64,000 nucleotides of DNA from Gammaproteobacteria bacterium (GCA_009840525.1 VXNP01000149.1:1-64000), one strand, 5' to 3'. Positions 40,615 through 58,680 are shown, counted from the stretch's first letter. Notes: generated by a model not told the origin, from the sequence alone. Numbers and translations: made by a program.

Positions 40615-41598
40615 TCAGGCGTCTTCGCGCAGCCAGCGTGCGGCCTCCACGGCGTAGTAGGTGACGATGATGTCCGCGCCCGCCCGCTTGATCGCGCCCA
40701 GGCTCTCCAGCGCCACCGCCTTCTCGTCGATCCAGCCGCGTTCGCCCGCGGCGCGCATCATGCTGAACTCGCCGGACACCTGGTAGGCCGCGGTGGGCGC
40801 GCGGAAGGTGTCCCTGACCCGCCGGATCACGTCGAGGCAGGGGCCCGCCGGCTTCACCATCACGATGTCCGCGCCCTCCTCCAGGTCGGCCTGCACCTCG
40901 CGCAGCGCCTCGTCGCTGTTGGCGGGATCCATCTGGTGGGTGCGGCGGTCGCCGTGCGAAGGCGCCGAGTGGGCCGCGTCGCGGAAGGGGCCGTAGAAGG
41001 CCGAGGCGTACTTGGCCGCGTACGACACGATGGGGGTCGAGCCGTGGCCCGCCTCGTCCAGGGCCGCGCGGATCACGCCCACGCGCCCGTCCAGCATGTC
41101 GCTCGGAGCCACCGCGTCCGCTCCGGCGCGGGCGTGGGAGACGGCCGTCCGGGCGAGCAGGGGCAGGGTGGCTTCTTCGTCGATGGCGCCATCCGGCGAC
41201 AGGATGGCGCAGTGGCCGTGGTCGGTGTACTGGCAGAGGCACACGTCGGTCCACACCAGCAGATCGGGGTAGCGCGTCTTGAGTTCACGGACCGCCCGCG
41301 GTATCAGGCCGCTCTCCGCATAGGCTTCGGAGCCCAGCGCGTCCTTCTGGTCGGGAACCCCGAAGAGCAGCACGGCGCCCACGCCCGCGTCCACGGCCGC
41401 CCCTGCTTCCTCCACGAGCAGCCCCGGGGAGAAGCGGTGGATGCCGGGCATGCTGGGCACGGGCTGGCGCCGTCCTTCGCCCGGCACCACGAAGAGCGGA
41501 TACACGAGATCGTCTACCCGGAGCGCGCTCTCGCGTACCAGGCGGCGCCAGGCCGGCGACTGCCGGAGGCGGCGGAGGCGGTGCTGCGGATAGGCCAT
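40615..41598 (-). CDS. hemB: Delta-aminolevulinic acid dehydratase (porphobilinogen synthase)
   Basis: A 327-residue HemB that condenses two aminolevulinate molecules to porphobilinogen. The active-site lysines are in SYAAKYASAFYGPFRDA and VMVKPAGPCLDVIR. The metal-binding part reads TDVCLCQYTDHGHC, with cysteines for the Zn site, so a Zn-type enzyme is likely. It lies 46 bp downstream of hemA, and the HmuY-like gene follows on the same strand. Confidence 0.97.
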   Translation of the reverse strand: MAYPQHRLRRLRQSPAWRRLVRESALRVDDLVYPLFVVPGEGRRQPVPSMPGIHRFSPGLLVEEAGAAVDAGVGAVLLFGVPDQKDALGSEAYAESGLIPRAVRELKTRYPDLLVWTDVCLCQYTDHGHCAILSPDGAIDEEATLPLLARTAVSHARAGADAVAPSDMLDGRVGVIRAALDEAGHGSTPIVSYAAKYASAFYGPFRDAAHSAPSHGDRRTHQMDPANSDEALREVQADLEEGADIVMVKPAGPCLDVIRRVRDTFRAPTAAYQVSGEFSMMRAAGERGWIDEKAVALESLGAIKRAGADIIVTYYAVEAARWLREDA

Positions 41599-41644
41599 GC
41601 GTCGGGATGCCGCCGTTCTGCGGGAGGGCCGACCGTCGCGGCGT

Positions 41645-42964: not shown

Positions 42965-43049
42965 TGTCTCCCTGGGGTTGAAGCGTCGTGCCGGGCCGAT
43001 CCGTCCCGGGCGGGTTCCGAGCCTGCCGTGGCAACGGGCGGGCAGAAGA

Positions 43050-43081
43050 TGATAATAGTTATCGGTACGGCACGCCTTCAA
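43050..43081 (-). promoter_or_regulatory. hemA promoter overlapped by a Fur-like dyad
   Basis: On the minus strand TTGAAG (43081-43076) is followed after 18 bp by TATTAT (43057-43052). Overlapping the -10 is TGATAATAGTTATCG (43050-43064): GATAA and TTATC form a perfect dyad, and the sequence matches 12 of 14 informative positions of the 7-1-7 Fur half-sites TGATAAT-N-ATTATCA. The site lies between divergent hemA and the ferredoxin gene, so it could control both. Regulation by Fur is inference. No fur gene is in the window. Confidence 0.6.
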
Positions 43082-43432: not shown

Positions 43433-44341
43433 ATGAGAAAGATCCGCACCTACCACGAAGTGGAGTCGCTGACGGGCGACCTTCTCGTCGATCAGATCCG
43501 GGGCCAGCGCCGCCGGCTCGACCGCCGGCTGGCCGGGATTCGCAACCTGGTCGCCGTCGGAAGCGGCAAGGGCGGAGTGGGCAAGAGCCTCGTGACGGCC
43601 AACCTGGCTGCCGCCCTGGCGGCGGAAGGCCGCACGGTCGGCGCGCTGGACGCAGACCTGAACGGCCCGTCGCTGGCCCGCATGCTGGGCGCGTCCGGGG
43701 AAGTGCTGGTGGACGGCGCGGAGGGTGTGGTTCCGGCGCCGGCTGCGGGCGGTGTCCGGGTGATGTCGATGGAGTTGCTGCAGAACGAGGCCGACGCTCC
43801 GCTGCGCTGGCGCGCGCCCTCCGGCGACGGCTTCCTGTGGCAGAGTTCGATCGAGACCGGGGCGGTGCGCGAGTTCCTGTCGGATGTGGCCTGGGGTGAC
43901 CTCGACTTCCTTCTGATGGACCTGCCGCCGGGAACCGACAAGATGGAGCGCGTCTTCCAGCTTCTGCCGGGGCTCGAGACGCTGCTTCTGGTGACGACTC
44001 CGTCCGAGATGTCCCGCCGGGTGGTGGCCCGGGCGGCGCGTCTGGCGCGCGAGCAGGGAATCCCGACCGTGGGGCTGGTGGCGAACATGACCGAGTACGT
44101 CTGTCCGTGCTGCGGTCACTCGGATCCGCTCTTTCCCGGAGACGGCGTCGCCCGTCTGGCCGCATCTACCGGTCTGGAGACCTGGGGCCGGATTCCCTTC
44201 GATCCTCGTCTGGGCGAAGCGTCCGACCGCGGGATTCCCTCCGTGGTCGCCAGCGAAGATTCGCCGAGCGCGCGCGCCTTCCGGGTGCTGGCGCGGAGGC
44301 TCGCCGAACCCGGAGAGGCCGGGGAGGAGCAGGCCCGATGA
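43433..44341 (+). CDS. Mrp/NBP35-family iron-sulfur carrier ATPase
   Basis: A 302-residue P-loop NTPase that carries or transfers Fe-S clusters. The deviant Walker A is GSGKGGVGKSLVTANLA (about residues 41-57), the following LDADLNGPS and DLPPGTDK are typical, and the C-terminal CPCCG (about residues 223-227) provides cluster ligands. The common N-terminal MIP18/DUF59 domain is absent, replaced by a 35-residue helical lead. It overlaps the next gene as ATGA. In this setting it could serve the ferredoxin and the radical SAM protein. Confidence 0.93.
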   Translation: MRKIRTYHEVESLTGDLLVDQIRGQRRRLDRRLAGIRNLVAVGSGKGGVGKSLVTANLAAALAAEGRTVGALDADLNGPSLARMLGASGEVLVDGAEGVVPAPAAGGVRVMSMELLQNEADAPLRWRAPSGDGFLWQSSIETGAVREFLSDVAWGDLDFLLMDLPPGTDKMERVFQLLPGLETLLLVTTPSEMSRRVVARAARLAREQGIPTVGLVANMTEYVCPCCGHSDPLFPGDGVARLAASTGLETWGRIPFDPRLGEASDRGIPSVVASEDSPSARAFRVLARRLAEPGEAGEEQAR

Positions 44342-44790
44342 AGTTCCTCTGCATCCAGTGCGATCACATCATGGCCTTCGCGGAGCGCCAGTTGCCCGGA
44401 GACGGCACCCTGGCGGCGGTGTTCGAGTGTTCCGCTTGCGGCCGCGAGATCGCCATGCTCACCAACCCCATGGAGACGCAGTTGGTGAGCAGCATGGGCA
44501 TCGAGATCGGGGGCCGGACGGTGCCCGAACAGCCGATGGAACTGGTGCGCGGCAACCTGGAAGGAGGACGCGACGACGCCTTCGTGGAGGAGGAGCCCCC
44601 CGCTCCCGCCCGTCCCGTCCGGGTCGAGTGGACCCCGGCGGCGGTGGATCGGCTCGGCCGGGTGCCGTCCTTCGTGCGGGGCATGGTGAAGCGCATCTAT
44701 ACGGACTACGCCCGCGAACGGGGCATCGAGCGCATGACGCCCGCGGTCATGGACACGGCGCGCTCGGACCTGGGGCTGGAGGGAATGTGA
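44338..44790 (+). CDS. Zinc-ribbon protein with C-terminal PCP_red-like domain
   Basis: A 150-residue protein in two parts. The N-terminus is a zinc ribbon (CIQCDHIMAF and CSACGRE, about residues 5-37). From residue 96 it has VEWTPAAVDRLGRVPSFVRG followed by AREGR-like helices and MTPAVMDTA, the PCP_red motif known from the C-terminus of the light-independent protochlorophyllide reductase B subunit. The same motif occurs in the universal stress protein and the radical SAM protein downstream. It overlaps mrp (ATGA) and the following membrane gene (GTGA), so it is firmly in the operon. Confidence 0.8.
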   Translation: MKFLCIQCDHIMAFAERQLPGDGTLAAVFECSACGREIAMLTNPMETQLVSSMGIEIGGRTVPEQPMELVRGNLEGGRDDAFVEEEPPAPARPVRVEWTPAAVDRLGRVPSFVRGMVKRIYTDYARERGIERMTPAVMDTARSDLGLEGM

Positions 44791-45233
44791 CCGATTCGAG
44801 CCGGGACCTCGCTCAGGGGCGAGCGGCCGGGCAGGAGCAGAGCCAGGGCCCCGATGCACGAAGCGGGGATGCGCGCGCCCGCAAGTTCCGGCAGGCCGCC
44901 TTCTGGTATCTGCACGTCGGGCTGCTCTACGAGGCGGCCGTCGTCGCCATGTGGCGCAACGGGCTGGTCAACCCGATCCGGGGCCCCATCGTGCTCTGGC
45001 TGCTGCTCGGCGCCGCGATCGTGGCGCTCGTCTTCTGGGGGCTCTGGTTCCGGCGCAGCGTGTGGCTGGCCCGGGGGATCTGGGCGCTGCACGCCCTGCG
45101 TCTCCCGAGCATGATCGAGGGAGCGTTCATGCCCGGACCCGACGCCGCGCTGCCCGCAGCGTTCTACCTCACTGCCATCGTCGTCATCGTCATCAATCTG
45201 TGGATGCTGGCCCGCGCCGGATGGGATCTCTGA
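44787..45233 (+). CDS. Small four-helix membrane protein of the mrp operon
   Basis: A 148-residue protein with a charged, disordered N-terminus of about 35 residues and four predicted membrane helices (around AAFWYLHVGLLYEAAVVAMW, IVLWLLLGAAIVALVFWGLW, LARGIWALHAL and FYLTAIVVIVINLWMLA). No family was recognised. The start is GTG, overlapping the previous stop (GTGA). A membrane anchor or heme/quinone-related role is possible but nothing in the sequence fixes it. Confidence 0.75.
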   Translation: MTDSSRDLAQGRAAGQEQSQGPDARSGDARARKFRQAAFWYLHVGLLYEAAVVAMWRNGLVNPIRGPIVLWLLLGAAIVALVFWGLWFRRSVWLARGIWALHALRLPSMIEGAFMPGPDAALPAAFYLTAIVVIVINLWMLARAGWDL

Positions 45234-45581
45234 CGCGGCAGCGGGGCGATTCCCCGGGGTGGATTCTTGCGCTTCATGCGCCGTTGCCGGACCCCTCCGC
45301 AGCGTTTGACATCGACAAGCGATCTCCGGTATTATTTGCCCGGCTCCGCGGGGGCCGACACATGAAATCTGATGAGCGGGCCCGGGTGCCCGCTTATGTT
45401 ATGTTCGCCGACCTTTTCGGCGACCGCCTTCGGGACTTGGCCCTGCCTGACTTGCCCAACCAAGTGGACCGCTTCCAGCCCGCTGGGCCCCCTCGGATGG
45501 GCCTCCTGCACCCGCCGCTCCAGCGTCGCATGGCTGAACCACAAGCGCCTCGTCCCTCGATAACCTTGAATCGAGACAGCC
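45234..45581 (+). other. Leader region of the universal stress protein gene
   Basis: About 348 bp between the small membrane protein gene and the universal stress protein gene. It contains the promoter at 45306-45335, then an untranslated or partly translated leader of about 240 bases. Two hairpins are clear, GCGGGC-CCGGGT-GCCCGC (45377-45394) and TCGCCGA-CCTTT-TCGGCGA (45405-45423). An open frame from 45362 to 45592 (76 codons) fills the leader and overlaps the next ATG by 11 bases. Its codon third positions are mixed and it may be a leader peptide or chance. Confidence 0.5.
45306..45335 (+). promoter_or_regulatory. Near-consensus sigma70 promoter for the universal stress protein operon
   Basis: TTGACA (45306-45311, perfect) is followed after 18 bp by TATTAT (45330-45335). 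This is the strongest promoter sequence in the window and implies high basal transcription of the universal stress protein, radical SAM and cytochrome genes, with a start near 45342. Confidence 0.75.
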
Positions 45582-47702
45582 ATGTACCGTGAGATCTTCG
45601 TGCCGGTGGACAACTCGCCTTGGTCGGACTGGGCGGTAGATCGCGCCATCGAGTTCGCTTCGCATTCCGACGGAAGGATCACCGGAAACCACGTCTACGC
45701 CGCGCGTCTGCACGACATCCGCTTCCGCCAGCTGGAGACCGGGCTTCCCGCTCAGTTCCAGACGGAAAAGGAGATCAAGCGCCAGCGCAAGATCCACGAC
45801 AAGCTGATCGAGAAGGGGCTGCAGCTCATCTCCGACTCCTTCCTCGACCAGGTAGACAAGCGGTGCGGGGCCGCCGGCGTGCCTCTCACGCGCCAGCTTC
45901 TCGAGGGCATCAACTACGAAGAACTGGTGAGCGAGGTGAACTCGGGAGAGGGCCATCTGCCGAGCCTCATCGGCTTCGATCCCAACATCGCCTCCAGCTA
46001 CGACGGGGGCGACAAGGTGCGCAGCGACGTGCGCCTGGGCGAAGACGGCCGCATCGTCGCAGAGGACGAGGAGCACGACGAGAAACTGGCCGGATCGAGC
46101 GGCCGCGCCTACGACCTGATGGTGATCGGGGCGCACGGGATCGGCTATCAGCCCTACTCGCAGCTCGGCGGCGTGGTGGCGCGCGTGCTGCAGAAGGTGG
46201 AGAAGGACACCCTCGTGGTGCGCAACGAGCGGCCGCTCGCCGGGGGCAGCTTCATGGTGTGCGTGGACGGGTCCGCGTACAGCTACAAGGCCATGCGCCT
46301 CGCTCTGGAGATGGCGTCTGAGTACGGGGCGAAGCTCTACGTGGGCTCATCCTTCGATGTCGAATACCATCATGCGGTCTTCGGCAACATCAAGGACGTG
46401 CTCTCGGTGCAGGCCTCGAAGATCTTCAAGTTCGAAGAGCAGGAGGAGCTTCACAACAACATCATCGACAAGGGCCTGCTGAAGCTCGCCCAGGCGAACG
46501 TGAAGCGGGCGCGCATCATGGCGGAGGAGTACCCGGAGGTCGAAGTCGAGGCCCAGGTGCTCATCGGCAAGCCCTTCCAGGTCATCCTGCAGTGGGCCGA
46601 GGAAGTCGACCCCAGCCTGCTCATCCTCGCGCGCCACGGGGCGCACCGCATCGAGGGCACGGACCTGGGGTCGCAGGCGCACAACCTGCTCAGGCAGTCG
46701 AACGCGAACATCCTCCTCATCGGCACCACCGACGTGCGTCCCGAGGAGATTCCGTGGATCGAGGAAGACGGCGAGATGGGGCTCGAGTGGGCTCCGGAGG
46801 CGGAGGTCCGGATCCTGCGGGTCCCGCCCTTCGCGCTCGGCATCGCCCGCAAGGCGGTGGAGGAATACGTGCTGGAGAACTGGAGCCCGGGCGAGGATCC
46901 GTCCCGGCCCTCCGCCAACGGATCCGGCGGCGCCAATGGAGCGCGGGCGAACGGTGCCCCGGACGCGCGGGCCAACGGGTCCAACGGCGCCGAGCCCCCG
47001 GTGCTGGAGCCCGGGCGCGACACCGGCGCCACCCTGCCCATGGTGACCAGCAAGTGGCTGGACGAGGCGATCGCAAAGCTGCTGCCCACCCACATGCAGC
47101 TCATCATGGGGATCGGCACGGCCGAGGAGCTCGCCCTGGCCGAAGTGAAGGCGGCGGAGGCCATGAAGCGCACGGTGGTAGAGGGCAGCGACGCCGATGC
47201 GGTGTCCGCCAACCCGACCATCGAGGTGACGTGCCCCTACACCGGGCATGTCCATGAGCGAACGCGCACGGCCGCCGACCCGGTGGTGTGGACCGAGGAG
47301 GCCTTCGACCGGCTGGGTGCAGTGCCTCTCATCGCCCGTCCCCTGGCCCGCAACACCGTGGAGCGCTTCGCCCGCGACCACGACTTCTGGCGCATCACCA
47401 CGCGGGTCATGGACGAGAACAAGCAGGCCATGATGGAGGCCGACACCTTCGACACCGACACCATGCTGGTCATGTTCCGGGAGCTGCAGACCAAGCAGCT
47501 GAAGGCGGCCGCCGAGGGGGTCGACGGGCTGACGCCCGAGATGCGCAAGTTCATCGAGGAAGCCAAAGCGTCCGGGGTGACTCGTTGCCCGATCCGGGAC
47601 GTGGCCGAGCAGGCGGACGACTGCCCCGTCGACTTCAAGACCGTCAGCCCCGCCGACGCGAAGGCGGCCGTCGAGCAGTTCATGCGGCGAGACGAGGCTT
47701 GA
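45582..47702 (+). CDS. Tandem universal-stress-protein with two PCP_red-like segments
   Basis: A 706-residue soluble protein. Two UspA-like nucleotide-binding domains occupy about residues 1-225 and 225-390, with the binding-loop patterns IGAHGIGYQPYSQLGG and RHGAHRIEGTDLGS. Then LEWAPEAEVRILRVPPFALG (W at about 403) and VVWTEEAFDRLGAVPLIARP (W at about 570) match the PCP_red motif. A linker of about residues 440-480 is rich in Asn, Gly, Ala and Ser and looks disordered. The C-terminus contains CPIRDVAEQADDCPVDF. The combination is unusual. It is followed by the radical SAM gene with a one-base overlap. Confidence 0.85.
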   Translation: MYREIFVPVDNSPWSDWAVDRAIEFASHSDGRITGNHVYAARLHDIRFRQLETGLPAQFQTEKEIKRQRKIHDKLIEKGLQLISDSFLDQVDKRCGAAGVPLTRQLLEGINYEELVSEVNSGEGHLPSLIGFDPNIASSYDGGDKVRSDVRLGEDGRIVAEDEEHDEKLAGSSGRAYDLMVIGAHGIGYQPYSQLGGVVARVLQKVEKDTLVVRNERPLAGGSFMVCVDGSAYSYKAMRLALEMASEYGAKLYVGSSFDVEYHHAVFGNIKDVLSVQASKIFKFEEQEELHNNIIDKGLLKLAQANVKRARIMAEEYPEVEVEAQVLIGKPFQVILQWAEEVDPSLLILARHGAHRIEGTDLGSQAHNLLRQSNANILLIGTTDVRPEEIPWIEEDGEMGLEWAPEAEVRILRVPPFALGIARKAVEEYVLENWSPGEDPSRPSANGSGGANGARANGAPDARANGSNGAEPPVLEPGRDTGATLPMVTSKWLDEAIAKLLPTHMQLIMGIGTAEELALAEVKAAEAMKRTVVEGSDADAVSANPTIEVTCPYTGHVHERTRTAADPVVWTEEAFDRLGAVPLIARPLARNTVERFARDHDFWRITTRVMDENKQAMMEADTFDTDTMLVMFRELQTKQLKAAAEGVDGLTPEMRKFIEEAKASGVTRCPIRDVAEQADDCPVDFKTVSPADAKAAVEQFMRRDEA

Positions 47703-49150
47703 TGGCCGGTCTCCGCGCGCCCGTTCTGCCCACGGTCGGGCGGGACGGCTTCTCCGAGCCCTCCGCCACTCCCTCCCTGCGCTGGGTCGCGGAGGGCGTA
47801 TCGGCGGATTCGGGGGCGGCGCCGGGTCTCCCGCACATCATCGCGTGGAATCTCACCCGGCGCTGCAACCTGGAGTGCGCGCACTGCTACATCTCCGCCG
47901 GAGCGTGGCACCTGGCCGACACGGAGTTGTCCACCGCGGAGTGTCATCGCGTGCTCGACCAGGTTCTGGAGGTCAACCCGAACCCGGTGCTCATTCTCTC
48001 GGGTGGGGAGCCCCTCCTGCGCGACGACCTGGAAGAGATCGCCGCCCGGGCGAGCGCCGGCGGGGCCACCGTGGTGGTGGGCACCAACGGCACCCGCCTC
48101 ACCGACCACCGCATCGAGTCGCTCATGGAGGCGGGGGTGAAGGGGGTCGCGGTCAGCGTGGACTCGCTGGTCGACACCTACCACGACCGCTTCCGCCACG
48201 GGTCGGGGGCGCTCTCCGACACCCTGGCCGCGGTGGACCGGCTCGCCGCCCACCGCCTGGACTTCATCGTCCAGACCAGCGTGACCCGGGGCAACCGGGC
48301 GGAGGTCGCCTCGATCGCCGCCTGGGCGGAGAGCCGGGGCGCGGTCTCGTTCAACCTGTACTTCCTGGTTCCGACCGGGCGCGGGGAGCGCATGCAGGGC
48401 CTCTCTCCGGAAGAGAACGAGACGGTGCTGGCCGAACTGGTGGAACTCGAGCGCAAGTACCGGGGCCGCATGATGGTGCGTTCCAAGTGCCAGCCGCAGA
48501 TCATGCGCCACGTGATCGAGGGCGGGGAGGAGTCGCCGCTGCTCAACTACGGCACCCGCTGCCCGTGCGGCGTCCACTACTGCCGCATCACCCCGGAGGG
48601 CAAGGTCACGCCCTGTCCCTACACCCCGGTGGTGGCGGGCGACCTCACCACCACCCCCTTCCGCCAGGTGTGGGAGTCGTCTCCCGTCTTCACCCGGCTG
48701 CGGGGTGGGGAGCTGGGAGGGCGGTGCGGGCGCTGCGAGTACCGTTCGGTGTGCGGGGGCTGCCGCGCGCGCGCCCACGCCCTGACTGGCGACCTGCTCG
48801 GCCCCGACGACTCCTGTGCCTACGATCCGGCCGGTGACCGGGCGGTCATCGAGCCGCGGCGAGCGGTCGTGTACGGCGACGACACCTCCCCGGGGCTTCC
48901 CTGGACCGAAGAGGCGCGCGCACGCCTGTCCGTGGTGCCCAGTTTCGTGCGCGGGGTGGTGTCCGAGCGCGTTGAGTCGTTCGCGCGCAAGCGCGGGTAC
49001 ACGAGTGTGACCGCCGACGTCATGGCAGAGGTGCGCCGCGGCATGCCGGTTGATTTCTCCAGGCGGCTGCCTTTCTTCCTACGCAAACAGATGTCCGCGG
49101 CCGCATCGCGCGACGGGACTCCGGAGGAGGACGATGTTCCCCGGAGTTGA
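47702..49150 (+). CDS. Radical SAM/SPASM protein with C-terminal PCP_red-like domain
   Basis: A 482-residue radical SAM enzyme. The cluster loop is CNLECAHC (about residues 55-62), with LILSGGEPLLR. The SPASM part has C-G-V-H-Y-C, CPYTP, CGRCEYRSVCGGCRARAHA and a last Cys. The segment CGGCRARA is characteristic of the heme d1 and siroheme-pathway enzymes NirJ, AhbC and AhbD, so a role in tetrapyrrole side-chain chemistry is a reasonable inference. From about residue 399 it carries LPWTEEARARLSVVPSFVRG, the PCP_red motif. It is not followed by nir genes. It overlaps the CydA-like gene by 17 bp if the ATG at 49134 is used. Confidence 0.85.
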   Translation: MAGLRAPVLPTVGRDGFSEPSATPSLRWVAEGVSADSGAAPGLPHIIAWNLTRRCNLECAHCYISAGAWHLADTELSTAECHRVLDQVLEVNPNPVLILSGGEPLLRDDLEEIAARASAGGATVVVGTNGTRLTDHRIESLMEAGVKGVAVSVDSLVDTYHDRFRHGSGALSDTLAAVDRLAAHRLDFIVQTSVTRGNRAEVASIAAWAESRGAVSFNLYFLVPTGRGERMQGLSPEENETVLAELVELERKYRGRMMVRSKCQPQIMRHVIEGGEESPLLNYGTRCPCGVHYCRITPEGKVTPCPYTPVVAGDLTTTPFRQVWESSPVFTRLRGGELGGRCGRCEYRSVCGGCRARAHALTGDLLGPDDSCAYDPAGDRAVIEPRRAVVYGDDTSPGLPWTEEARARLSVVPSFVRGVVSERVESFARKRGYTSVTADVMAEVRRGMPVDFSRRLPFFLRKQMSAAASRDGTPEEDDVPRS

Positions 49151-50975
49151 CAAGACCTCGGAGAGAAACGTGCCGAAACCTGGTATGACGTGGCGCTCCG
49201 GCGCCGGACCCATCCTTCTGCTGGGTGCGCTGGCCCTCCTGGTGATGGCGGAGCCCGCATTCGCCCAGGTGCCCGCCGGGCGCGATTACGGCGACTTCCC
49301 GGTCATCGGCGGGCGGGCGGCCGTGTGGATCGCGGCCCAGGTGCACCTGCTCTTCGCAGCCTTCGTGCTGGGCGTGCCCATGTTCGCCGTGGTCACCGAG
49401 GCCATCGGCATGTTCGGCGGCGACGAGCGCTACGACAAGCTGTCCAAGGAGTTCACCCGGCTTCTGCTGGTCGCGTACTCGGCCACCGCCATCTGGGGCG
49501 GCATCCTGCTCTTCCTGCTGGTCACCATCTACCCGACCCTGTTCAGCTACCTCGCGCAGATCTTCAACCTGTCGATGTGGATCTACGTGGGGCTCTTCTT
49601 CTTCGAGTCCTTCACGCTGTACCTGTACTACTATGGCTGGGACCGCTGGAAGAAGGGGCGCGCCAAGTGGTTCCACTGGGGGCTGGGGATCGCCCTGAAC
49701 GTGTGGGGCACGATCGTCATGTTTATCGCCAACGGCTGGCTGACCTACATGATGAGCCCGCCGGCCGACGTCACCGTCGACACCGCTCCGCAGATGATCC
49801 AGTTGTGGACGGCGCTCACCAACGCGACCTGGATGCCGATCAACATCCACCGGCTGATCGCCAACGTCGTGTTCGGCGGGGCGGTGGTCGGCGCCTACGC
49901 GGCGTACCGCTTCCTGGCCGCAAAGAGCGACGAGGAGCGGGCGCACTACGACTGGATGGGCTACGTGGGCAACATGATCGCCATCGGCGCGCTCATCGTT
50001 CTGCCCTTCGCGGGCTACTGGCTGGGCCGCGAGATCTACGAGTTCAACCAGCAGATGGGCATCACCATGATGGGCGGCTTCATGAGCTGGCTGTGGATCA
50101 TCCAGGCCTTCCTGATCGGGATACTGTTCCTCGCCGGCAACTATTACCTGTGGGTGGGGATGGGCCGAATACCCGGGGCGGAGCGCTTCATGCCCTACAC
50201 GAAGTACATGCTCGCCGTGCTCATCGTGGGCGTGATCGTATGGGCGACGCCCAACACCATGATCGCCAGCCGCGAGGAGTTCGCGGCGATGGGCGGCACG
50301 CACCACCCCTTCCTGAGCGTCCTCGGGCTGATGAGCGGCAAGAACACGGCGGTCAACTTCATGATCCTGACCACCTTCCTGTCGTTCCTGCTCTACCGGC
50401 GCGCAAACAAGGAACCGGTGGTGCCGTGGGCGCGCACCGGCACGATCGTGCAGGGCGCGATTTTCATCATTGCTTCGGCGGTCGTGCTGTTCTACGGGAT
50501 CTACGGCTACAGGGTGCCGACCATCGTGCGCATCGGCTTCTCGGTCTACCAGGTGCTCACGGTGCTCGCGTGCATCATCGGCGTGATCACCATCGACCTG
50601 CTGATGCTGCGCGGTGCCACCTCGAGAGGCACGATCCGGTGGGGCCGGATGCCGGCGCGCTCGCAGTACGCGCTCTTCATCCTGGCGGTGACCTTCACCT
50701 GGCTGATGGGCCTCATGGGCTTCGCGCGCAGCGGCATCCGCCAGCACTGGCACGTCTTCGAGGTCATTCGCGACACCAGCCCCTGGGCGGCGACCCCGGC
50801 GCTGGGCTATTCGTCCGTGGTCATCTCGGCCTGCGTGCTCATCTTCTTCGGGCTGGTGGCCTTCATCTTCTGGCTGGGCTCGCTGGCCGAGAAACCCGTG
50901 ATATCGTCAGCGGGCCGGACCTCGGCCGCGGGCGGGATCCAGAGCGACCTTCAGCCGGCACCCAGCGAGGGATAG
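49134..50975 (+). CDS. Cytochrome bd-like subunit I (CydA family), no CydB partner
   Basis: A 613-residue membrane protein of the CydA family with about a dozen helices. The motif QVHLLFAAFVLGVP corresponds to the heme-ligand helix of CydA (His19 in E. coli), YVGLFFFESFTLYL keeps the conserved Glu of the heme b595/d site, MFIANGWLTYMMSPP matches the ANGWM region, and IHRLIANVVFGG corresponds to His186. The usual GRQPW quinol-loop motif reads RDTSPW. A signal-peptide-like N-terminus ends AEPAFAQ. I used the ATG at 49134, where GGAGGAGG precedes it. A GTG at 49170 is possible. The genes that follow encode c-type cytochromes and no cydB. Confidence 0.85.
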   Translation: MFPGVDKTSERNVPKPGMTWRSGAGPILLLGALALLVMAEPAFAQVPAGRDYGDFPVIGGRAAVWIAAQVHLLFAAFVLGVPMFAVVTEAIGMFGGDERYDKLSKEFTRLLLVAYSATAIWGGILLFLLVTIYPTLFSYLAQIFNLSMWIYVGLFFFESFTLYLYYYGWDRWKKGRAKWFHWGLGIALNVWGTIVMFIANGWLTYMMSPPADVTVDTAPQMIQLWTALTNATWMPINIHRLIANVVFGGAVVGAYAAYRFLAAKSDEERAHYDWMGYVGNMIAIGALIVLPFAGYWLGREIYEFNQQMGITMMGGFMSWLWIIQAFLIGILFLAGNYYLWVGMGRIPGAERFMPYTKYMLAVLIVGVIVWATPNTMIASREEFAAMGGTHHPFLSVLGLMSGKNTAVNFMILTTFLSFLLYRRANKEPVVPWARTGTIVQGAIFIIASAVVLFYGIYGYRVPTIVRIGFSVYQVLTVLACIIGVITIDLLMLRGATSRGTIRWGRMPARSQYALFILAVTFTWLMGLMGFARSGIRQHWHVFEVIRDTSPWAATPALGYSSVVISACVLIFFGLVAFIFWLGSLAEKPVISSAGRTSAAGGIQSDLQPAPSEG

Positions 50976-50984: not shown

Positions 50985-51785
50985 ATGCTAAAGACCAACC
51001 TGAGTATCCTGGCCGTTGTGATCGGCTGCCTGGCCGTGTTCACCTGGGTCGCCAACGCCATCCCGCAGCTCCAGTCGGATGTGCCCGAGGACCTGGTGTT
51101 GTCGGACGACGTCACCCCCGCGGAGCTGATCGCGGCGGGCGAGGAGCTGTACAACGGCGGCGGTGGTTGCACGGCCTGCCACGGCCTGGGCGAGCGCGCC
51201 CCGAACCTGCTCACCGATCATGCGGGGACCGGGCTCATCGGCGAGCGCTGCGCGAACCGCGTGCCGGGCGAGGACTGCAAGCAGTACCTGCATACGTCCA
51301 TGGTAGACCCCAACGCGTACCTGGTGGAGGGGTTTGCGCCGATCATGCTGGACGCGAGCCGCACCCTCTCCTCCGTGCAGATCTGGGCGATTGTGGCCTA
51401 TCTGCAATCCCTGGGAGGGGAGGTCACGGTTACGGGAGCGGATTTTGCGGACGATGGCGGCGCGGCACCCGCCGGCGGGGTCGTGGCGAGCGCGCCCGCC
51501 GCCCCGGTGCTGGGTCCGACCGGGCCCCTCGACCCGGAAGAGCTTCTGACCCGGTACACCTGCGCCACCTGCCACGCGATCAGCGGGCCCTCGCCGCTGG
51601 GGCCGTCCTACGAGGGCATGGGATCTCGCCTGACCGCCGATGAAATCCGGACCTCCATCCTCGATCCCACCGCGTCGGCGGCCGAGAATTTCGAGGCGAT
51701 GCTCGGGATCATGCCCCCGATCTTCGGCAACATCCCGGCGGCCGAACTCGAGGCGATCGTGCAGTTCATCGCATCGCAGAGATAG
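50985..51785 (+). CDS. Membrane-anchored diheme cytochrome c
   Basis: A 266-residue cytochrome with an N-terminal helix (LSILAVVIGCLAVFTWVA) that anchors it. Two class I heme sites are seen, GCTACHGLG (about residue 60) and TCATCHAIS (about residue 190), separated by a Gly/Ala/Pro-rich linker of about 35 residues. Each domain ends with a MetPro-type ligand segment (GFAPIMLDAS and GIMPPIFG). It is 9 bp downstream of the CydA-like gene and probably carries electrons to or from it. Confidence 0.88.
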   Translation: MLKTNLSILAVVIGCLAVFTWVANAIPQLQSDVPEDLVLSDDVTPAELIAAGEELYNGGGGCTACHGLGERAPNLLTDHAGTGLIGERCANRVPGEDCKQYLHTSMVDPNAYLVEGFAPIMLDASRTLSSVQIWAIVAYLQSLGGEVTVTGADFADDGGAAPAGGVVASAPAAPVLGPTGPLDPEELLTRYTCATCHAISGPSPLGPSYEGMGSRLTADEIRTSILDPTASAAENFEAMLGIMPPIFGNIPAAELEAIVQFIASQR

Positions 51786-51812: not shown

Positions 51813-52616
51813 ATGAACACCAAGCCCTGGAAGCATCCGCTGGGCCAGGCGGCCATCGTCGTGGTGCTGGCGTACGTCCTCTTCGAATGGGGCATCTGGC
51901 TCCTGCCGCCCCTCTTCGGTGTCGCCAGCGCGCCGGTGCCCGCCACCGTGGTCCTGCAGTACATGGGGACCGTGGTCGTGGGCGTGCTGATCTGGGTCAG
52001 CGACTCCGAGGAGCGCTGGAAGCAGTTCAAGGCCCCCATCCACCGGGTCATGGTCGATCCGCGCCAGAAGGTCCTGCGCACGGCGCTCATGGTCACCATT
52101 CCCCTTCTGGTCGCCTTCATGACCTTCGACCGGGTGCGGCCCACGGTCTCGGCCCCGGCCGCGCTGCGTTCGGTGCATCCGGCGCCCCCAGGACAGATCG
52201 ACTTCCGCGGCGAGACCATGGTCCTCAACGGGCTCGAGAACCCGCTCCGGCACGAGGGCGACCTGGAGGAGCACTACGAGGAGGGCAAGAGGATCTACGT
52301 TCAGAACTGCATGCCGTGCCACGGCGATGCGCTGGACGGGCAGGGGCACTTCGCGAGCGCCTTCAACCCCGCGCCCCTCAGCTTCCAGGACCCGGGCACC
52401 ATCGTACAGCTCACCGAGAGCTTCGTCTTCTGGCGCATCGCCAAGGGCGGTCCCGGACTGCCGCGCGAGGCCACGCCCTGGGACTCGGCGATGCCCGCCT
52501 GGGAGGACCTGCTTACCGCCGAAGAGATCTGGCAGGTGACCATCTACCTCTACGAACAGACCGGCTGGGAGCCGCGCACCTGGGAGGAAGAGGGCGCCGA
52601 AGGGGAGGAGCACTGA
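51813..52616 (+). CDS. Cytochrome c with N-terminal membrane helices
   Basis: A 267-residue protein with two or three N-terminal membrane helices (QAAIVVVLAYVLFEWGIWLL and VVLQYMGTVVVGVLIWVS, then VLRTALMVTIPLLVAFMTF) followed by a soluble cytochrome c domain. The heme site is NCMPCHGDALDGQGHFA (about residues 169-185) and the likely sixth ligand is the Met in DSAMPAWED. The layout resembles subunits that fasten a cytochrome to a membrane complex. It overlaps the next gene by one base (TGATG). Confidence 0.85.
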   Translation: MNTKPWKHPLGQAAIVVVLAYVLFEWGIWLLPPLFGVASAPVPATVVLQYMGTVVVGVLIWVSDSEERWKQFKAPIHRVMVDPRQKVLRTALMVTIPLLVAFMTFDRVRPTVSAPAALRSVHPAPPGQIDFRGETMVLNGLENPLRHEGDLEEHYEEGKRIYVQNCMPCHGDALDGQGHFASAFNPAPLSFQDPGTIVQLTESFVFWRIAKGGPGLPREATPWDSAMPAWEDLLTAEEIWQVTIYLYEQTGWEPRTWEEEGAEGEEH

Positions 52617-54220
52617 TGCGGGCGCGAGCGAGCAGTCCACGGGCTGCGATGATACCCGGTTTCGTATTCGCCGCGGCGATGACGTGCGCGCTTTCGGCCC
52701 CTCTCGCCGCCCAGGAAGAGAACGCGCTCGGGCGCGACGTCTACGACCGCTGGTGCGCCTCCTGCCACGGCTACGAAGGCCTCGGTGACGGCTACGCGGC
52801 GACCTACATGCTGCCGCGCCCGCGCGACTTCACCCAGGCGCTCTACCAGATCCGCACCACCGCCAGCGGGCAGCTTCCCACCGACGACGACATCATGCGC
52901 GTCATCAACGAGGGCATGCCGGGCACGACCATGCCCGGATGGGAGGAAGAGCTCAGCCTCGAAGAGCGACTCGCGCTCGTCGACTACCTCAAGAGCTTCT
53001 CCCGGTTCTTCGCCGCCGGCGAGGCTCCCGCGCCGCTGACCTTCAGCAGCCCGACGCGCGCCACCGAAGAAGCCCTCGCCGACGGTCGCGAGGTATACGA
53101 GCTCATCGAGTGCAATCGCTGCCACGGCATCGACGGGAGGGGCGACGGCACCTCCTCGCCGACGCTCGTCGACGACGCGGGGATGCCCACCTACTCGGCG
53201 GACCTGACCGAGAACTGGTACTTCAACGGCGGCGGCACGGTGGAGGACATCTACCAGCGGCTGCGCACCGGCCTGGACGGGACGCCGATGCCGTCGTTCA
53301 CCGACCTGATCGACGCCGGGGTCATCACCGACGAACAGCTGTGGAACCTCGCGCACTACGTTCGCAGCTTCGCGCCCGAAGACCCGCCGGGCATCACCGA
53401 GGTGATCCGGGCCGGTCTGGTGGAGGATGCGCCGCTGCCGGATGGCGTCGACGACCCGCTGTGGGAGTCGGCCGAGGCGTTCTACATCCCGATGGGCGGG
53501 CAGATCATCGAGAGCCCGCGCTGGTTCGTGCCGCAGGTGGCGGGGCTGTGGGTGCGCGCCCTGCACGATGGCGGTGAGCTCGCGGTGCACGTCTCCTGGA
53601 GCGACCACTCCGAGAGTCCCGACACCGCGTGGGCGGCCTTCCAGGCCCAGGTCCTGTCGGCGCTGGGACCCGCCGAGGGCGACATGGAGCCGGGTCCCAG
53701 ACCCGACGGCCTGTACCTCCAGTTCCCCATGGAGATCCCGGAGGGGATGGACAAGCCCTATTTCCTCATGGGAGATCCGCTGGAGCCCGTGTACCTGTGG
53801 CACTGGGAGAGCACGGCGGACGGCGCGCAGGAGGCGGACGCGCGCGGGCTCGGCACCATGGCGCCTCAGGGCAACGCCAGCCAGTCGCTCGTGTCGGAGG
53901 CGGCGTTTTCGGAGGGGCGCTGGGCTGTTATGTTCCGCCGCACTCTTGAGAACGAGGATCCGGGCGATCTGCAGTTCCGTATCGGCGAGCCGGTGCCGGT
54001 CGGCTTCGCCGCGTGGGACGGCGACAACGGAGAGTCGAGATCCCGGGGTTCGATCAGTTCATGGCACTACATTTTCCTGCAGGAACCGACGCCAGCCACC
54101 GTGGTGGTCGCGCCGCTGATTGCGACGCTGCTGACCGCCGGGCTGGGCGTGCTGGTTGTGGCCCGGGCCCAGAGGCGCGAGCGGGAGGGCGCCGAGGGCC
54201 CGGATGAAGGCGACGCGTAG
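52616..54220 (+). CDS. Diheme cytochrome c fused to an ethylbenzene-dehydrogenase-type heme b domain
   Basis: A 534-residue exported protein. After a signal peptide (AMTCALSAPLAAQ) come two cytochrome c domains with CASCHGYEGLGDG (about residue 43) and CNRCHGIDGRGDG (about residue 167). Residues from about 275 to 490 match the heme b-binding EB_dh family (gamma subunit of ethylbenzene dehydrogenase and relatives). A C-terminal helix (TVVVAPLIATLLTAGLGVLVV) anchors it. Such fusions mediate electron transfer between periplasmic or quinol donors and cytochromes. It joins three heme groups in one chain. Confidence 0.85.
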   Translation: MRARASSPRAAMIPGFVFAAAMTCALSAPLAAQEENALGRDVYDRWCASCHGYEGLGDGYAATYMLPRPRDFTQALYQIRTTASGQLPTDDDIMRVINEGMPGTTMPGWEEELSLEERLALVDYLKSFSRFFAAGEAPAPLTFSSPTRATEEALADGREVYELIECNRCHGIDGRGDGTSSPTLVDDAGMPTYSADLTENWYFNGGGTVEDIYQRLRTGLDGTPMPSFTDLIDAGVITDEQLWNLAHYVRSFAPEDPPGITEVIRAGLVEDAPLPDGVDDPLWESAEAFYIPMGGQIIESPRWFVPQVAGLWVRALHDGGELAVHVSWSDHSESPDTAWAAFQAQVLSALGPAEGDMEPGPRPDGLYLQFPMEIPEGMDKPYFLMGDPLEPVYLWHWESTADGAQEADARGLGTMAPQGNASQSLVSEAAFSEGRWAVMFRRTLENEDPGDLQFRIGEPVPVGFAAWDGDNGESRSRGSISSWHYIFLQEPTPATVVVAPLIATLLTAGLGVLVVARAQRREREGAEGPDEGDA

Positions 54221-54253: not shown

Positions 54254-55132
54254 ATGAGAGACCTGTTCGGATGCGGCCGGGCCATGGTGATGGCGACGGC
54301 TGCGGTGTTCGCGATCGGTTGCGGCGGCGGTGGTGGCGGCGAGGCCGGCGGCGGCATGGAAGAAGAGGCCGCTGGCGAGGAGATGGCATCTCCCGTCGAC
54401 ATGGCGACCGCGGGCGGCATCAACGCGATGGTGATGTTCGAGGGCATGGCGCCCGAGATGGACGCGATCGACATGGCGTCCGAGCCGGATTGCGCGGCCC
54501 GGTACACCGATACCCCGATGGCCGAGGAGGTCGTGGTGGGCGACGGCGGCGGCCTGGCCAATGTCTTCGTCTACGTCAGGGAAGGCCTCGACGCCGGCAT
54601 GAGCTTCCCCACCCCGGGCGGCGCGGTGGTCATGGACCAGGTCGGTTGCCGCTACGTGCCCCGTGTAGTGGGCGTGCAGGCGGGCCAGGACCTCACCTTC
54701 CGCAACTCGGACGGCCTGCCCCACAACATCAACGCCTCGCCCAGCGAAAACCGCGGCTTCAACGTCAGCCAGCCGGTGAACATGGACACCAACCGCAGCT
54801 TCCCGCTGGCGGAGGTGATGGTCCCGGTGCGCTGCGACGTGCACGGCTGGATGAGCGCCTACGTGGGCGTGTTGGACCATCCCTTCCACGGGGTCACGGA
54901 CATGGAGGGAGGCGCCGACCTGGGCATGCTCCCGCCCGGTGAGTACGTGGTCGAGGCGTGGCACGAGCGCTACGGCACGCAGACCGCCAACGTCACCGTC
55001 ACCACCGGCGAGACCGCGATGGTGAGCTTCTCCTTCTCGGAAGCCATGGCCGCCAACGCCGTGGTGCCGATGGGCGAGCCGATCGATCCGCACGGCCACG
55101 CAGCCCACGCTCTCGCTTCCGAGACCCATTAG
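54254..55132 (+). CDS. Plastocyanin-like blue-copper lipoprotein
   Basis: A 292-residue lipoprotein. The signal peptide ends in a lipobox, VFAIGC, followed by a Gly/Glu/Ala-rich linker. A cupredoxin domain follows, with predicted copper ligands His in LPHNIN (about residue 157), then Cys and His in RCDVHGWM (about residues 196-203) and Met. The C-terminal part has an Ig/carboxypeptidase-regulatory-like fold (LPPGEYVVEAWHERYG). It is placed directly before the aa3 oxidase genes and may deliver electrons to CuA of CoxB. Confidence 0.82.
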   Translation: MRDLFGCGRAMVMATAAVFAIGCGGGGGGEAGGGMEEEAAGEEMASPVDMATAGGINAMVMFEGMAPEMDAIDMASEPDCAARYTDTPMAEEVVVGDGGGLANVFVYVREGLDAGMSFPTPGGAVVMDQVGCRYVPRVVGVQAGQDLTFRNSDGLPHNINASPSENRGFNVSQPVNMDTNRSFPLAEVMVPVRCDVHGWMSAYVGVLDHPFHGVTDMEGGADLGMLPPGEYVVEAWHERYGTQTANVTVTTGETAMVSFSFSEAMAANAVVPMGEPIDPHGHAAHALASETH

Positions 55133-55246: not shown

Positions 55247-55948
55247 ATGAGCTGGTTGCTCCCCGAGAGTTTTTCCACCTTTGGGCCGGACGTCGACTTT
55301 CTGTACTACGTGATCCTGTGGGTCACGGGCGTCGTCTTCGTGATCACTGAGGCGCTCCTGGTCTATTTCGTCATCCGCTACCGGCGGCGCGAGGGGCAGA
55401 AGGCCACCTACATCCACGGGTCGACGAAGGCGGAGATCATCTGGACGACCCTTCCCTTCATCGCCGTCCTCGCACTGGCCTTCATCAGCATTCCCTCGTG
55501 GAACATGATGAAGAACCCGGACAGCGTGCCCGCCGACGCCCTCGACTACATCGTCAACGCGAAGCAGTTCGAATGGGAGATCACCTACGCCGGCACCGAC
55601 GGGGTCACCGGCACCGCCGACGACATCTCGACGATCAACATCATGCATGTCCCGGTGAACCAGGCCGTCAACATCACCCTCCGGTCCGAGGACGTGCTGC
55701 ACTCGTTCTTCCTGCCGGAGATGCGGGTGAAGCAGGACGCCGTTCCCGGAATGGACATCACCGTCTGGTTCGAGGCGACCGCCGCGGGCGCCTATCCCAT
55801 CGGATGCGCCGAACTCTGCGGTAATCTGCATACGACCATGGGCGGGACCCTCAACGTGTACGAGGCGGCCGAGTTCGATGCGTGGGTCGCCTCCCAGAGC
55901 GCGGACGCCGACGACGCCGACGACGCCGACGATCAGGAGGACCAGTAG
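55247..55948 (+). CDS. coxB: Cytochrome c oxidase subunit II (CuA)
   Basis: A 233-residue subunit II. Two membrane helices are visible (YYVILWVTGVVFVITEALL and IIWTTLPFIAVLALAFISI). The CuA site reads CAELCGNLHTTM (C, C, H and M at about residues 187-198) with the earlier ligand His in VLHSFFLPEMRVKQD. No fused cytochrome c domain is present, so electrons come from a separate cytochrome or the cupredoxin. The C-terminus is an Ala-Asp repeat (ADADDADDADD). The next gene starts at the following base. Confidence 0.95.
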   Translation: MSWLLPESFSTFGPDVDFLYYVILWVTGVVFVITEALLVYFVIRYRRREGQKATYIHGSTKAEIIWTTLPFIAVLALAFISIPSWNMMKNPDSVPADALDYIVNAKQFEWEITYAGTDGVTGTADDISTINIMHVPVNQAVNITLRSEDVLHSFFLPEMRVKQDAVPGMDITVWFEATAAGAYPIGCAELCGNLHTTMGGTLNVYEAAEFDAWVASQSADADDADDADDQEDQ

Positions 55949-57709
55949 ATGGACGCGCACGCGCACGCCCACGAGATGCCGTGGATTCGGCGTTACGTCT
56001 TCTCGACCGACCACAAGATCATCGCCATCCAGTTCCTCCTGATGAGCCTGTTCTTCCTGGTCGTAGGGGGGTTGCTGGCAGCGATGATCCGGTGGCAGCT
56101 GGGGTTCCCGAGCGAGCCCATGCCCGGTGGCATGCTGCTGCCCGACGAGATGATGGCCCCCACGCCCGCCGGCGCCATCATGCTGCCCGAGTTCTACAAC
56201 TCGCTGGTCACCATGCACGGCACCATCATGATCTTCTTCGCGATCATGCCGCTGCTGGTGGGGGTCTTCGGCAACCTGCTGATCCCGCTCCAGATCGGCG
56301 CCGACGACATGGCCTTCCCGCGCCTCAACATGGCGTCGTTCTGGATGGCCTTCCCGGCCGGGCTGCTGATGCTGGTGAGCTTCGCGGTGGAAGGGGGGGC
56401 GGCCGGCGCCGGATGGACGTCGTATGCCCCGCTCAGCGCGAGCGGTGAGTACACCGGCGTCTACCTGGGGCAGCAGCTATGGCTGATCAGCCTCACCATC
56501 CTGGGCTTCGCGTCGCTCGCGGGCGCCGTCAACTACATCACGACCATCATCAACATGCGCGCACCCGGGATGACCTGGTTCCGCATGCCGCTGGCCACCT
56601 GGGCGCTCTTCATCACCGCGATCCTGATCCTGCTGGCGATTCCGATCCTGGCGGGCGCGCTGATCATGCTGCTCTTCGACCAGACCATCGGAACCGGGTT
56701 CTTCCTGCCGGCCAGCGACGGCGAGCCGCTGCTCTGGCAGCACCTGTTCTGGTTCTTCGGGCACCCGGAGGTCTACATCCTCATCCTGCCCGCCATGGGC
56801 ATCACCTCGGACGTGCTGGCCAACGGCGCGCGCAAGCCCGTCTTCGGCTACCACGCCATGGTGCTGGCGATCGTCTCCATCGCCTTCCTGTCATGGATCG
56901 TGTGGGGTCACCACATGTTCCAGAGCGGGATGAACCCGATGCTCGGCACCACCTTCATGATCACGACCATGGTGATCGCGGTACCGTCGGCCATCAAGGT
57001 GTTCAACTGGCTGGGGACCATCTACAAGGGGAACATCCACTTGCACACCCCCATGCTGCACGCCCTGGGCTTCGTGTCGATGTTCATCATCGGCGGGCTC
57101 TCCGGCGTGTTCATGGCCTCGACCCCGGTCGACGTATACATCCACGACACCTACTTCATCGTGGCGCACATCCACTACGTGCTCTTCGGCGGCAGCCTGT
57201 TTGCGATCTTCGCCGGCGTCACCTTCTGGTATCCGAAGATGTTCGGCCGCCTCATGAACGAGAAATGGGGCAGGATCCACTTCTGGCTCACGCTGATCCT
57301 CTACAACCTGGTGTTCTGGCCCATGCACTCGATCGGGATCCAGGGACACATGCGGCGCATCTACGACCCCACGCAGTACGAGTTCCTGCAGCCCCTGCAG
57401 CCCATCAACCAGTTCATCACGGTGTGCGTCTTCGCGCTGGTGGCGGTTCAGGCGATCTATGCCCTCAACTTCATCATCAGCATCTGGAAGGGGAAAAAGG
57501 CCGGGAACAACCCGTGGCACGCCAACTCGCTGGAGTGGACGGTGCCATCGCCGCCGCCGCACGGGAACTTCGAGCTGGTGCCCATCGTCTACCGCGGGCC
57601 CTACGAGTACTCCGCGCCCGATGTGGAAGAGGACTACTGGCTGCAGGACACGCCGCCGCCGAGCGAGACCGCCGCGCCCGCTCTCGAACCCCAGCCGGTC
57701 GCGGACTAG
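55949..57709 (+). CDS. coxA: Cytochrome c oxidase subunit I, A-family heme-copper oxidase
   Basis: A 586-residue catalytic subunit with twelve helices. Ligands seen: low-spin heme His in TMHGTIM (about residue 88), CuB His and cross-linked Tyr in GHPEVYILI (about residues 271-276), CuB His pair in GHHMF (about residue 320), and high-spin and low-spin His in AHIHYVLFGG (about residues 406-409). The Glu in GHPEV is the D-pathway residue of A1-type enzymes. The N-terminus is His-rich (AHAHAHE). It starts at the base after the coxB stop. Confidence 0.97.
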   Translation: MDAHAHAHEMPWIRRYVFSTDHKIIAIQFLLMSLFFLVVGGLLAAMIRWQLGFPSEPMPGGMLLPDEMMAPTPAGAIMLPEFYNSLVTMHGTIMIFFAIMPLLVGVFGNLLIPLQIGADDMAFPRLNMASFWMAFPAGLLMLVSFAVEGGAAGAGWTSYAPLSASGEYTGVYLGQQLWLISLTILGFASLAGAVNYITTIINMRAPGMTWFRMPLATWALFITAILILLAIPILAGALIMLLFDQTIGTGFFLPASDGEPLLWQHLFWFFGHPEVYILILPAMGITSDVLANGARKPVFGYHAMVLAIVSIAFLSWIVWGHHMFQSGMNPMLGTTFMITTMVIAVPSAIKVFNWLGTIYKGNIHLHTPMLHALGFVSMFIIGGLSGVFMASTPVDVYIHDTYFIVAHIHYVLFGGSLFAIFAGVTFWYPKMFGRLMNEKWGRIHFWLTLILYNLVFWPMHSIGIQGHMRRIYDPTQYEFLQPLQPINQFITVCVFALVAVQAIYALNFIISIWKGKKAGNNPWHANSLEWTVPSPPPHGNFELVPIVYRGPYEYSAPDVEEDYWLQDTPPPSETAAPALEPQPVAD

Positions 57710-57734
57710 ACCCGATTCAGGAGATAACTGACGC

Positions 57735-58370
57735 ATGAGCCAACCAGCCGCATCGACAGCCGACCGGCATCCCATGCCCGGGATGATGGTCTACAACGTA
57801 AAGCTGGGAATGTGGATCTTCCTGCTGTCGGAAGTGATGTTCTTCACGGCCCTGATCGGGTCCTACATCATCCTGCGATTCGCCCACCCGGATCATTTCG
57901 CCGAGCCCGGGGCGGTGCTGAACGTGCCGCTCACGGCCTTCAACACCTTCGTTCTGATCTGCTCGAGCGTGTCGATGGTCAAGGCGTACGCCGCGATCAC
58001 GCAGGGTGACCAGAAGGGGCTGAAGTTCTGGCTCCTGGTGACGATTCTCCTCGGCACCTTCTTCGTCGGGGTCCAGGTGTACGAGTACATCATCCTGGCC
58101 CAGGAGGGATTCGTTCCCATGGCGGAGCTGTACGGCGTGGCCCACGAGATCGAGGGGGCCGCCCTGTACGGAGCCACCTTCTACACGATGACGGGATTCC
58201 ACGGAACGCACGTCACCATCGGGATCCTGTGCATGTGGTTCGTCCTGTACCGGGCGTGGCAGGGCAAGTACTCTGCGGACAACTACGGGGGGGTGGAGAT
58301 CATGGGTCTCTACTGGCACTTCGTAGACCTGGTGTGGATCATTCTGTTCACGATCGTATACCTCATCTGA
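57735..58370 (+). CDS. coxC: Cytochrome c oxidase subunit III
   Basis: A 211-residue subunit III with five to seven helices. LGMWIFLLSEVMFFTALIGSY near the start, FHGTHVTIGILCMWF in the second half (His and Glu positions conserved in the family) and YWHFVDLVWIILF at the end are diagnostic. Length is typical of the shorter bacterial form. It lies between coxA (25 bp) and coxD (43 bp). Confidence 0.96.
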   Translation: MSQPAASTADRHPMPGMMVYNVKLGMWIFLLSEVMFFTALIGSYIILRFAHPDHFAEPGAVLNVPLTAFNTFVLICSSVSMVKAYAAITQGDQKGLKFWLLVTILLGTFFVGVQVYEYIILAQEGFVPMAELYGVAHEIEGAALYGATFYTMTGFHGTHVTIGILCMWFVLYRAWQGKYSADNYGGVEIMGLYWHFVDLVWIILFTIVYLI

Positions 58371-58413
58371 TCATTGAGCGGCGGCGGCCGCCTGGAACCA
58401 AGGAGACATCGGG

Positions 58414-58680
58414 ATGGCAGGCAACGGCGAAGAGCCCAGATACTTCCTGATCTGGTTCATACTGTTCGTTCTGACGATGGCCGAGGTGGGGTACGCGTTC
58501 CTCGCCCTTCCGCAGTGGCTGCTGGCCACGGGGCTGATCCTCATGGCGCTCTGGAAGGCCCTGCTGGTGGCGATCTACTACATGCACCTGAAGTGGGAGC
58601 CCAAGCGGCTCTGGATTCTGGCCGCCAGCCCATTGCCGCTGGCGGTGATTCTGGTGATCGCCGTGCTGACGGAGTTCTGA
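58414..58680 (+). CDS. coxD: Cytochrome c oxidase subunit IV, small membrane type
   Basis: An 88-residue protein with three predicted membrane helices, matching the prokaryotic subunit IV family (FILFVLTMAEVGYAFLAL and LVAIYYMHLKWEPKRLW). The YYMHLKWE segment is a family marker. It is the last gene before the intrinsic terminator and completes the oxidase operon. Confidence 0.92.
   Translation: MAGNGEEPRYFLIWFILFVLTMAEVGYAFLALPQWLLATGLILMALWKALLVAIYYMHLKWEPKRLWILAASPLPLAVILVIAVLTEF

Follow-up and report, generated by a model that had tools for sequence, protein, structure and literature searches.

Why a domain of chlorophyll synthesis should recur in three otherwise unrelated neighbouring proteins is the question raised by a gene block in the window, the 64,000-nucleotide stretch of DNA analysed here. 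The domain, PCP_red, is the C-terminal piece of the light-independent protochlorophyllide reductase B subunit. A preliminary description had noticed four copies of a PCP_red-like motif in this block, one in a zinc-ribbon protein (ZnR-PCP), two in a tandem universal stress protein (USP-PCP), and one in a radical SAM/SPASM protein (rSAM-PCP). It had read them as a shared docking or tetrapyrrole-binding module of one coherent, undescribed maturation system. The genes and domain copies are listed in Table 1.

Table 1. Genes and PCP_red copies of the block and its downstream neighbours, with positions in the window
Feature	Position	Strand	Evidence and remarks
Mrp/NUBPL-type P-loop ATPase, Fe-S carrier family	43433..44341	+	PF10609 229 bits; start codon tentative
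ZnR-PCP: zinc ribbon and C-terminal PCP_red	44338..44790	+	PF08369 48.8 bits; orthologue alignment
PCP_red copy 1 of 4 (ZnR)	44629..44763	+	51.1 bits, whole-genome search
Small membrane protein	44787..45233	+	no Pfam match; start tentative
USP-PCP: tandem universal stress protein and two PCP_red	45582..47702	+	PF00582 98.7 bits, PF08369 51.0 bits
PCP_red copy 2 of 4 (USP, first copy)	46788..47103	+	23 bits; end estimated from alignment; interrupted by a variable linker, Pfam match confined to 46788-46877
PCP_red copy 3 of 4 (USP, second copy)	47289..47423	+	39.1 bits, whole-genome search
rSAM-PCP: AhbD/NirJ-like radical SAM/SPASM protein and C-terminal PCP_red	47702..49150	+	PF04055, PF13186, PF08369
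PCP_red copy 4 of 4 (rSAM)	48902..49036	+	59.5 bits, whole-genome search
CydA-like bd-superfamily membrane protein, presumed client	49161..50975	+	PF01654 79.6 bits; start tentative
Cytochrome c protein, two CxxCH sites	50985..51785	+	PF13442/PF00034; translation
Membrane-anchored cytochrome c	51813..52616	+	PF13442
Diheme cytochrome c fused to ethylbenzene-dehydrogenase-type heme b domain	52613..54220	+	PF13442, PF09459; TIGR03477 86 bits
Cupredoxin-like / carboxypeptidase-regulatory-like protein	54254..55132	+	profile match
cox2, cox1, cox3, cox4 heme-copper oxidase genes	55247..58680	+	profile matches; after the block in sampled loci

Four PCP_red copies in three neighbouring proteins

Pfam-A hmmscan matched PF08369 (PCP_red, family cut-off 32.5 bits) in all three proteins: at residues 98-142 of ZnR-PCP, across two stretches of USP-PCP (the better at 570-614), and at residues 403-447 of rSAM-PCP (57.4 bits, counted in the 47696 frame). 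A search of the whole 4.0 Mb genome returned only the four places given in Table 1. It yielded no further convincing copy, the next best match scoring 12.9 bits, and no PCP_red of the BchB type.

The ZnR copy, the second USP copy and the rSAM copy exceeded the cut-off. The first USP copy alone stayed below it, matching model positions 1-30, because a long variable insert occupies the loop preceding the last helix. In orthologues with a short insert, where this copy reaches about 40 bits, both USP copies passed the cut-off (43.9 and 40.0 bits in G228, 43.3 and 39.5 bits in G055). The motif residues W403, V414-P415, W570 and V581-P582 were invariant in 20 USP-PCP orthologues, which are 67-77% identical. 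The preliminary description would have been undermined if the profile had recognized the zinc-ribbon or SPASM copy only, or if orthologues had lacked the motif in the universal stress protein; neither turned out to be the case.

The copies also recognized each other. An HMM built from the rSAM copy scored ZnR-PCP at 54 bits, the second USP copy at 29 bits, and the first at 17-20 bits, and an HMM built from BchB scored the ZnR, rSAM and USP copies at 30, 24 and 16 bits, respectively. The best score of any single-protein HMM on 1000 shuffled proteins was 7.5 bits. Together with the Pfam E-values, these comparisons rule out chance similarity. Recent duplication of one domain is unlikely as well, since each copy is strongly conserved among orthologues and the copies clearly differ from one another. 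Structure models predicted, with moderate confidence, three helices each for the rSAM copy (405-449) and the second USP copy (572-620), as befits a small all-helical domain.

The remaining PCP_red carriers that we identified in the phylum Gemmatimonadota were BchB-like proteins and BchZ. BchB and BchZ are enzymes of tetrapyrrole reduction. Among the 249 genomes surveyed (see below), most of those with exactly two copies had a strong BchB-like match and a weak second one. In G172 the weak match is BchZ, over the BchZ curated cut-off (L104:2556-4001), and a BchZ with an equally weak match was also present in the single-copy genome G118 (L103:4046-5491). In both, the BchZ C-terminus gave a sub-threshold PCP_red match of 23-27 bits; Pfam thus probably under-calls a domain that BchZ shares with BchB.

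A conserved operon and its distribution

The Mrp and ZnR genes overlap (ATGA at 44338), and so do the USP and rSAM genes (TGATG at 47700). Read from the sequence, these overlaps suggest that the genes belong to a single translationally coupled operon. Among 20 loci picked across families of the phylum, the Mrp ATPase was the first gene of the conserved operon, and the order Mrp, ZnR, USP, rSAM, CydA-like, cytochromes c, cox was kept in all 18 loci that were intact upstream. The gene order, which the preliminary description had singled out for checking, is therefore conserved, and a strain-specific arrangement is ruled out by the sampled loci. The gene for the small membrane protein was present in some of these loci only, at times upstream of Mrp. 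In the window, hemB and hemA adjoin the operon on the opposite strand (40615-43081); they were not found near it in the 20 sampled loci and were dismissed as members of the system.

Among 39 relatives, PCP_red searches of long frames found four copies in 17, none in 21, and two in G019. We then used a sample of 249 Gemmatimonadota genomes, each at least 90% complete, and scored the trio of PCP_red proteins as present when a genome held at least 3 copies. The trio was found in 65 genomes, 56 of which had exactly four copies, and a protein search found the CydA-like protein in 64. Both were present in 62 genomes and neither in 182; the CydA-like protein stood alone in 2 and the trio in 3 (Fisher p=3e-52, a value that ignores kinship within one phylum and is thus confounded by common descent). 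Three of the five exceptions fit assembly gaps, with contig breaks inside the operon in G228 and G236 and, in G069, two copies that lie on different contigs.

The trio occurred without a detected CydA-like gene in G051 and G180, in a divergent form (37-54% identity) that retains Mrp, ZnR-PCP and rSAM-PCP. In the USP protein of G051 (L099:8126-9643), a USP domain, three PCP_red domains and a zinc ribbon are joined in one chain; the intervening zinc ribbon weakly matches HypA. No CydA-like protein was detected in G051, where the contig breaks off within the radical SAM gene and canonical CydAB is encoded elsewhere. The cassette genes of G180 are split over contigs; we found no CydA of either kind in that genome and no CydA gene after its radical SAM gene.

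Additional CydA-like genes were seen in G251 and G236. G251 has two of them and PCP_red in eight copies, apparently amounting to two entire operons. The second CydA-like protein of G236 (51% identical; L097, contig C92) has no PCP_red gene in the surrounding 14 kb and is flanked by two sets of similar cytochrome genes; it may be part of a related complex for which the cassette is dispensable. A degenerate DNA pattern for the ZnR motif, which accepted only GTA/GTT for valine in two places and hence could reach just part of the possible loci, was found at four loci, all from Gemmatimonadota. A plasmid search gave no match for the CydA-like protein and only USP-domain matches for USP-PCP; among the matches listed for rSAM-PCP, the radical SAM matches ended before PCP_red.

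The co-occurrence and the gene order support the idea of a single coherent system to which the trio belongs, as do the four copies in 56 of the 65 trio genomes, the order kept in every untruncated locus, and the G051 fusion.

Family assignment of the cassette proteins

The zinc ribbon of ZnR-PCP has four cysteines (C5, C8, C31 and C34) that are invariant in the orthologue alignment. USP-PCP is a universal stress protein by its PF00582 score and by a Foldseek match to the tandem USP Rv2623; its single-chain model is weak outside the USP core (mean pLDDT 62), and it has conserved cysteines at the C-terminus.

For rSAM-PCP, the best NCBIfam models were AhbD heme b synthase (271 bits) and NirJ2 (269 bits). 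The curated equivalog cut-offs were not reached, either for AhbD (271 versus 500 bits) or for NirJ (180 versus 515 bits). The protein also scored 243 bits with TIGR04053, a model whose name gives no substrate. The CxxxCxxC motif and the SPASM cysteines are present. All 15 orthologues aligned retain the radical SAM cysteines, so rSAM-PCP is probably an active enzyme. Its orthologues share a conserved MPVDFSKRxPFF tail.

The chemistry of AhbD and NirJ has been reviewed; AhbD converts coproheme to heme b (PMC7242693). This genome has no genes of the AhbAB/NirDLGH type (PF17805, siroheme decarboxylase). Of 11 cassette genomes tested, 10 lack them as well, and all 11 have HemQ. HemQ-family genes occurred in 62 of the 64 genomes with the CydA-like protein versus 57 of the 185 others, in a comparison that ignores kinship. 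This pattern suggests that cassette genomes probably make heme b by way of HemQ, so that the substrate of AhbD, coproheme, would be available. General heme synthesis is independent of the cassette, since 184 of the 249 genomes lack it. A link of the trio to tetrapyrroles gains support from the best scores of rSAM-PCP, which fall on AhbD and NirJ2, and from the BchB-like and BchZ identity of the other carriers.

The CydA-like complex as a likely client

The protein encoded directly downstream of rSAM-PCP belongs to the bd superfamily, both by its PF01654 match and by the heme-ligand positions of its N-terminal half. In alignments, H62 falls in the His19/21 region of CydA, H230 in the His186 region and E149 in the E99 region; these are the sites of the heme d and heme b558 histidines and of E99. 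The alignments to solved CydA chains stop before or at the quinol-binding loop region. No match to CydB (PF02322), the partner in canonical CydAB, was found in this genome. Canonical CydA was found in 83 of the 249 genomes, and only 13 of these had the trio (at least 3 PCP_red copies), which rules out the trio as a factor for canonical bd oxidases or for bd oxidases in general.

The likely client is the adjacent CydA-like/cytochrome c complex, whose distribution matches that of the trio almost perfectly. The heme b domain encoded at the end of the cytochrome genes (TIGR03477) is of the type II DMSO reductase gamma-subunit type; we noticed no such reductase nearby.

Cytochrome b (PF00033) is absent from this genome and was rarer in genomes with the CydA-like protein (20/64) than in the others (113/185). 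A published survey likewise reported the bc1 complex as uncommon in Gemmatimonadota (PMC9426454). NrfD-type (alternative complex III-like) proteins were present in all 249 genomes. The CydA-like complex therefore need not replace complex III, and the idea that it is the sole quinol:cytochrome c oxidoreductase is weakened.

Proposed role of the cassette and alternative explanations

We give about even chances to the following reading: Mrp, ZnR-PCP, USP-PCP and rSAM-PCP are a cytoplasmic cassette devoted to the biogenesis of the downstream CydA-like/cytochrome c complex, with PCP_red as a shared putative tetrapyrrole-handling or docking module and rSAM-PCP modifying or delivering the heme of that complex. 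The domains, the operon, its gene order and the co-occurrence are observed; what the enzyme acts on, which reaction it catalyses, how the proteins assemble and how delivery proceeds are inferred as follows. Mrp would supply Fe-S clusters, with rSAM-PCP as their most likely recipient. The PCP_red domains would gather the three proteins around one ligand, most likely heme or an Fe-porphyrin, either by binding the ligand or by docking to each other. The AhbD/NirJ-like rSAM-PCP would modify this tetrapyrrole, coproheme or heme b being the likely substrate. USP-PCP, a putative scaffold with its two PCP_red domains, would hold the tetrapyrrole together with ZnR-PCP and deliver it into the CydA-like subunit.

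The main rival remains a pure docking role, which we consider possible but somewhat unlikely. PCP_red would then be a protein-protein docking tag only, with USP-PCP as the scaffold that assembles ZnR-PCP and rSAM-PCP. The target of the radical SAM enzyme would be a protein component of the complex, perhaps a cytochrome or some residue in the CydA-like subunit, and not a tetrapyrrole. Many SPASM enzymes are indeed peptide or protein maturases, and SkfB, SuiB, anSME and PqqE are among the best Foldseek matches of rSAM-PCP. Several PCP_red domains on separate proteins would suit a common interface, and the G051 fusion would suit a scaffold. However, the rSAM sequence is nearest to AhbD and NirJ2 and not to the peptide maturases, and the other carriers of the domain in the phylum, BchB-like proteins and BchZ, act on tetrapyrroles.

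It is less probable that the three proteins are oxygen- or stress-regulated chaperones that insert unmodified heme b into the CydA-like protein, with rSAM-PCP as a chaperone or a back-up coproheme decarboxylase. AhbD, the best model for rSAM-PCP, is itself a coproheme-to-heme b enzyme, and HemQ nearly always accompanies the CydA-like protein, so coproheme should be present. Against this improbable version speak the invariant radical SAM cysteines, which point to an active enzyme, the probable supply of heme b by HemQ, and the mostly missing trio in genomes with canonical bd or caa3 oxidases. Still harder to credit is that the trio serves another purpose, be it the cox genes or a response to stress or redox state, and adjoins the CydA-like complex by inherited linkage only. 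The divergent trio members that G051 and G180 retain without a detected CydA-like gene would agree with such a history. The near-perfect co-occurrence and adjacency across several families of the phylum do not, and heme-copper oxidases are far commoner than the trio, caa3 occurring in 74% of Gemmatimonadota genomes (PMC9426454).

The biogenesis reading can be taken further: the cassette would provide a bd-like oxygen reductase with a new modified heme, made when rSAM-PCP alters the side chains of either coproheme or heme b. Photosynthetic and respiratory cofactor pathways would then have PCP_red in common as a general domain for presenting tetrapyrroles. We regard this extended form as unlikely.

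The preliminary interpretation is thus supported in part, in assigning the trio to one system and in its putative tetrapyrrole link; the adjacent CydA-like/cytochrome c client was missing from it. We found no description of the cassette in the open-access literature searched, in agreement with the earlier view of an undescribed system. The cassette is conserved, apparently undescribed, and most likely devoted to biogenesis of the CydA-like respiratory complex. If this is true, the BchB C-terminal domain has a role outside photosynthesis, a photosynthetic cofactor domain is tied to aerobic respiration, and a previously noted but unexplained fusion to stress proteins finds a context. The cassette would also be the first system proposed to assemble those uncharacterised bd-like oxygen reductases that have no canonical CydB. 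Which heme such enzymes carry, and what makes it, would become a testable question.

Comparison with known systems

The light-independent reductases (DPOR/COR) share with ZnR-PCP, USP-PCP and rSAM-PCP the C-terminal domain of their subunits BchB and BchZ, and a tetrapyrrole context. DPOR subunit B differs by its PF00148 nitrogenase-type domain, which Pfam-A hmmscan did not match in any of the three proteins, and the ATPase of DPOR is BchL, whereas the operon described here has Mrp/NUBPL. Asr4154 of Nostoc (PDB 2l09), a small PCP_red protein outside BchB, weakly matches the domain of ZnR-PCP; unlike ZnR-PCP, its 62-residue chain is too short for a zinc ribbon.

The radical SAM/SPASM part of rSAM-PCP scores highest against AhbD and NirJ2. 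The protein is set apart from the AhbD/NirJ enzymes by its C-terminal PCP_red, its MPVDFSKRxPFF tail, scores below all curated cut-offs, and a genome without NirDLGH/AhbAB homologues.

The domain pairing of USP-PCP recurs in some archaeal universal stress proteins with a BchB-like C-terminal domain, termed unusual (PMC12159084); the passage concerned discusses no radical SAM, zinc-ribbon or bd-like partner.

Two papers (PMC10839748, PMC12342949) describe bd-like oxidases of Nitrospinota and Nitrospirota that are thought to use cytochrome c and that still await experimental confirmation. The passages on these OR-N / CydAA' oxidases mention no PCP_red or radical SAM cassette. With the complex described here they have in common the CydA fold, equivalents of the heme d/b558 histidines, neighbouring c-type cytochromes, and the lack of a canonical CydB. 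The parts of the cassette come from known families; their combination and the proposed client are new.
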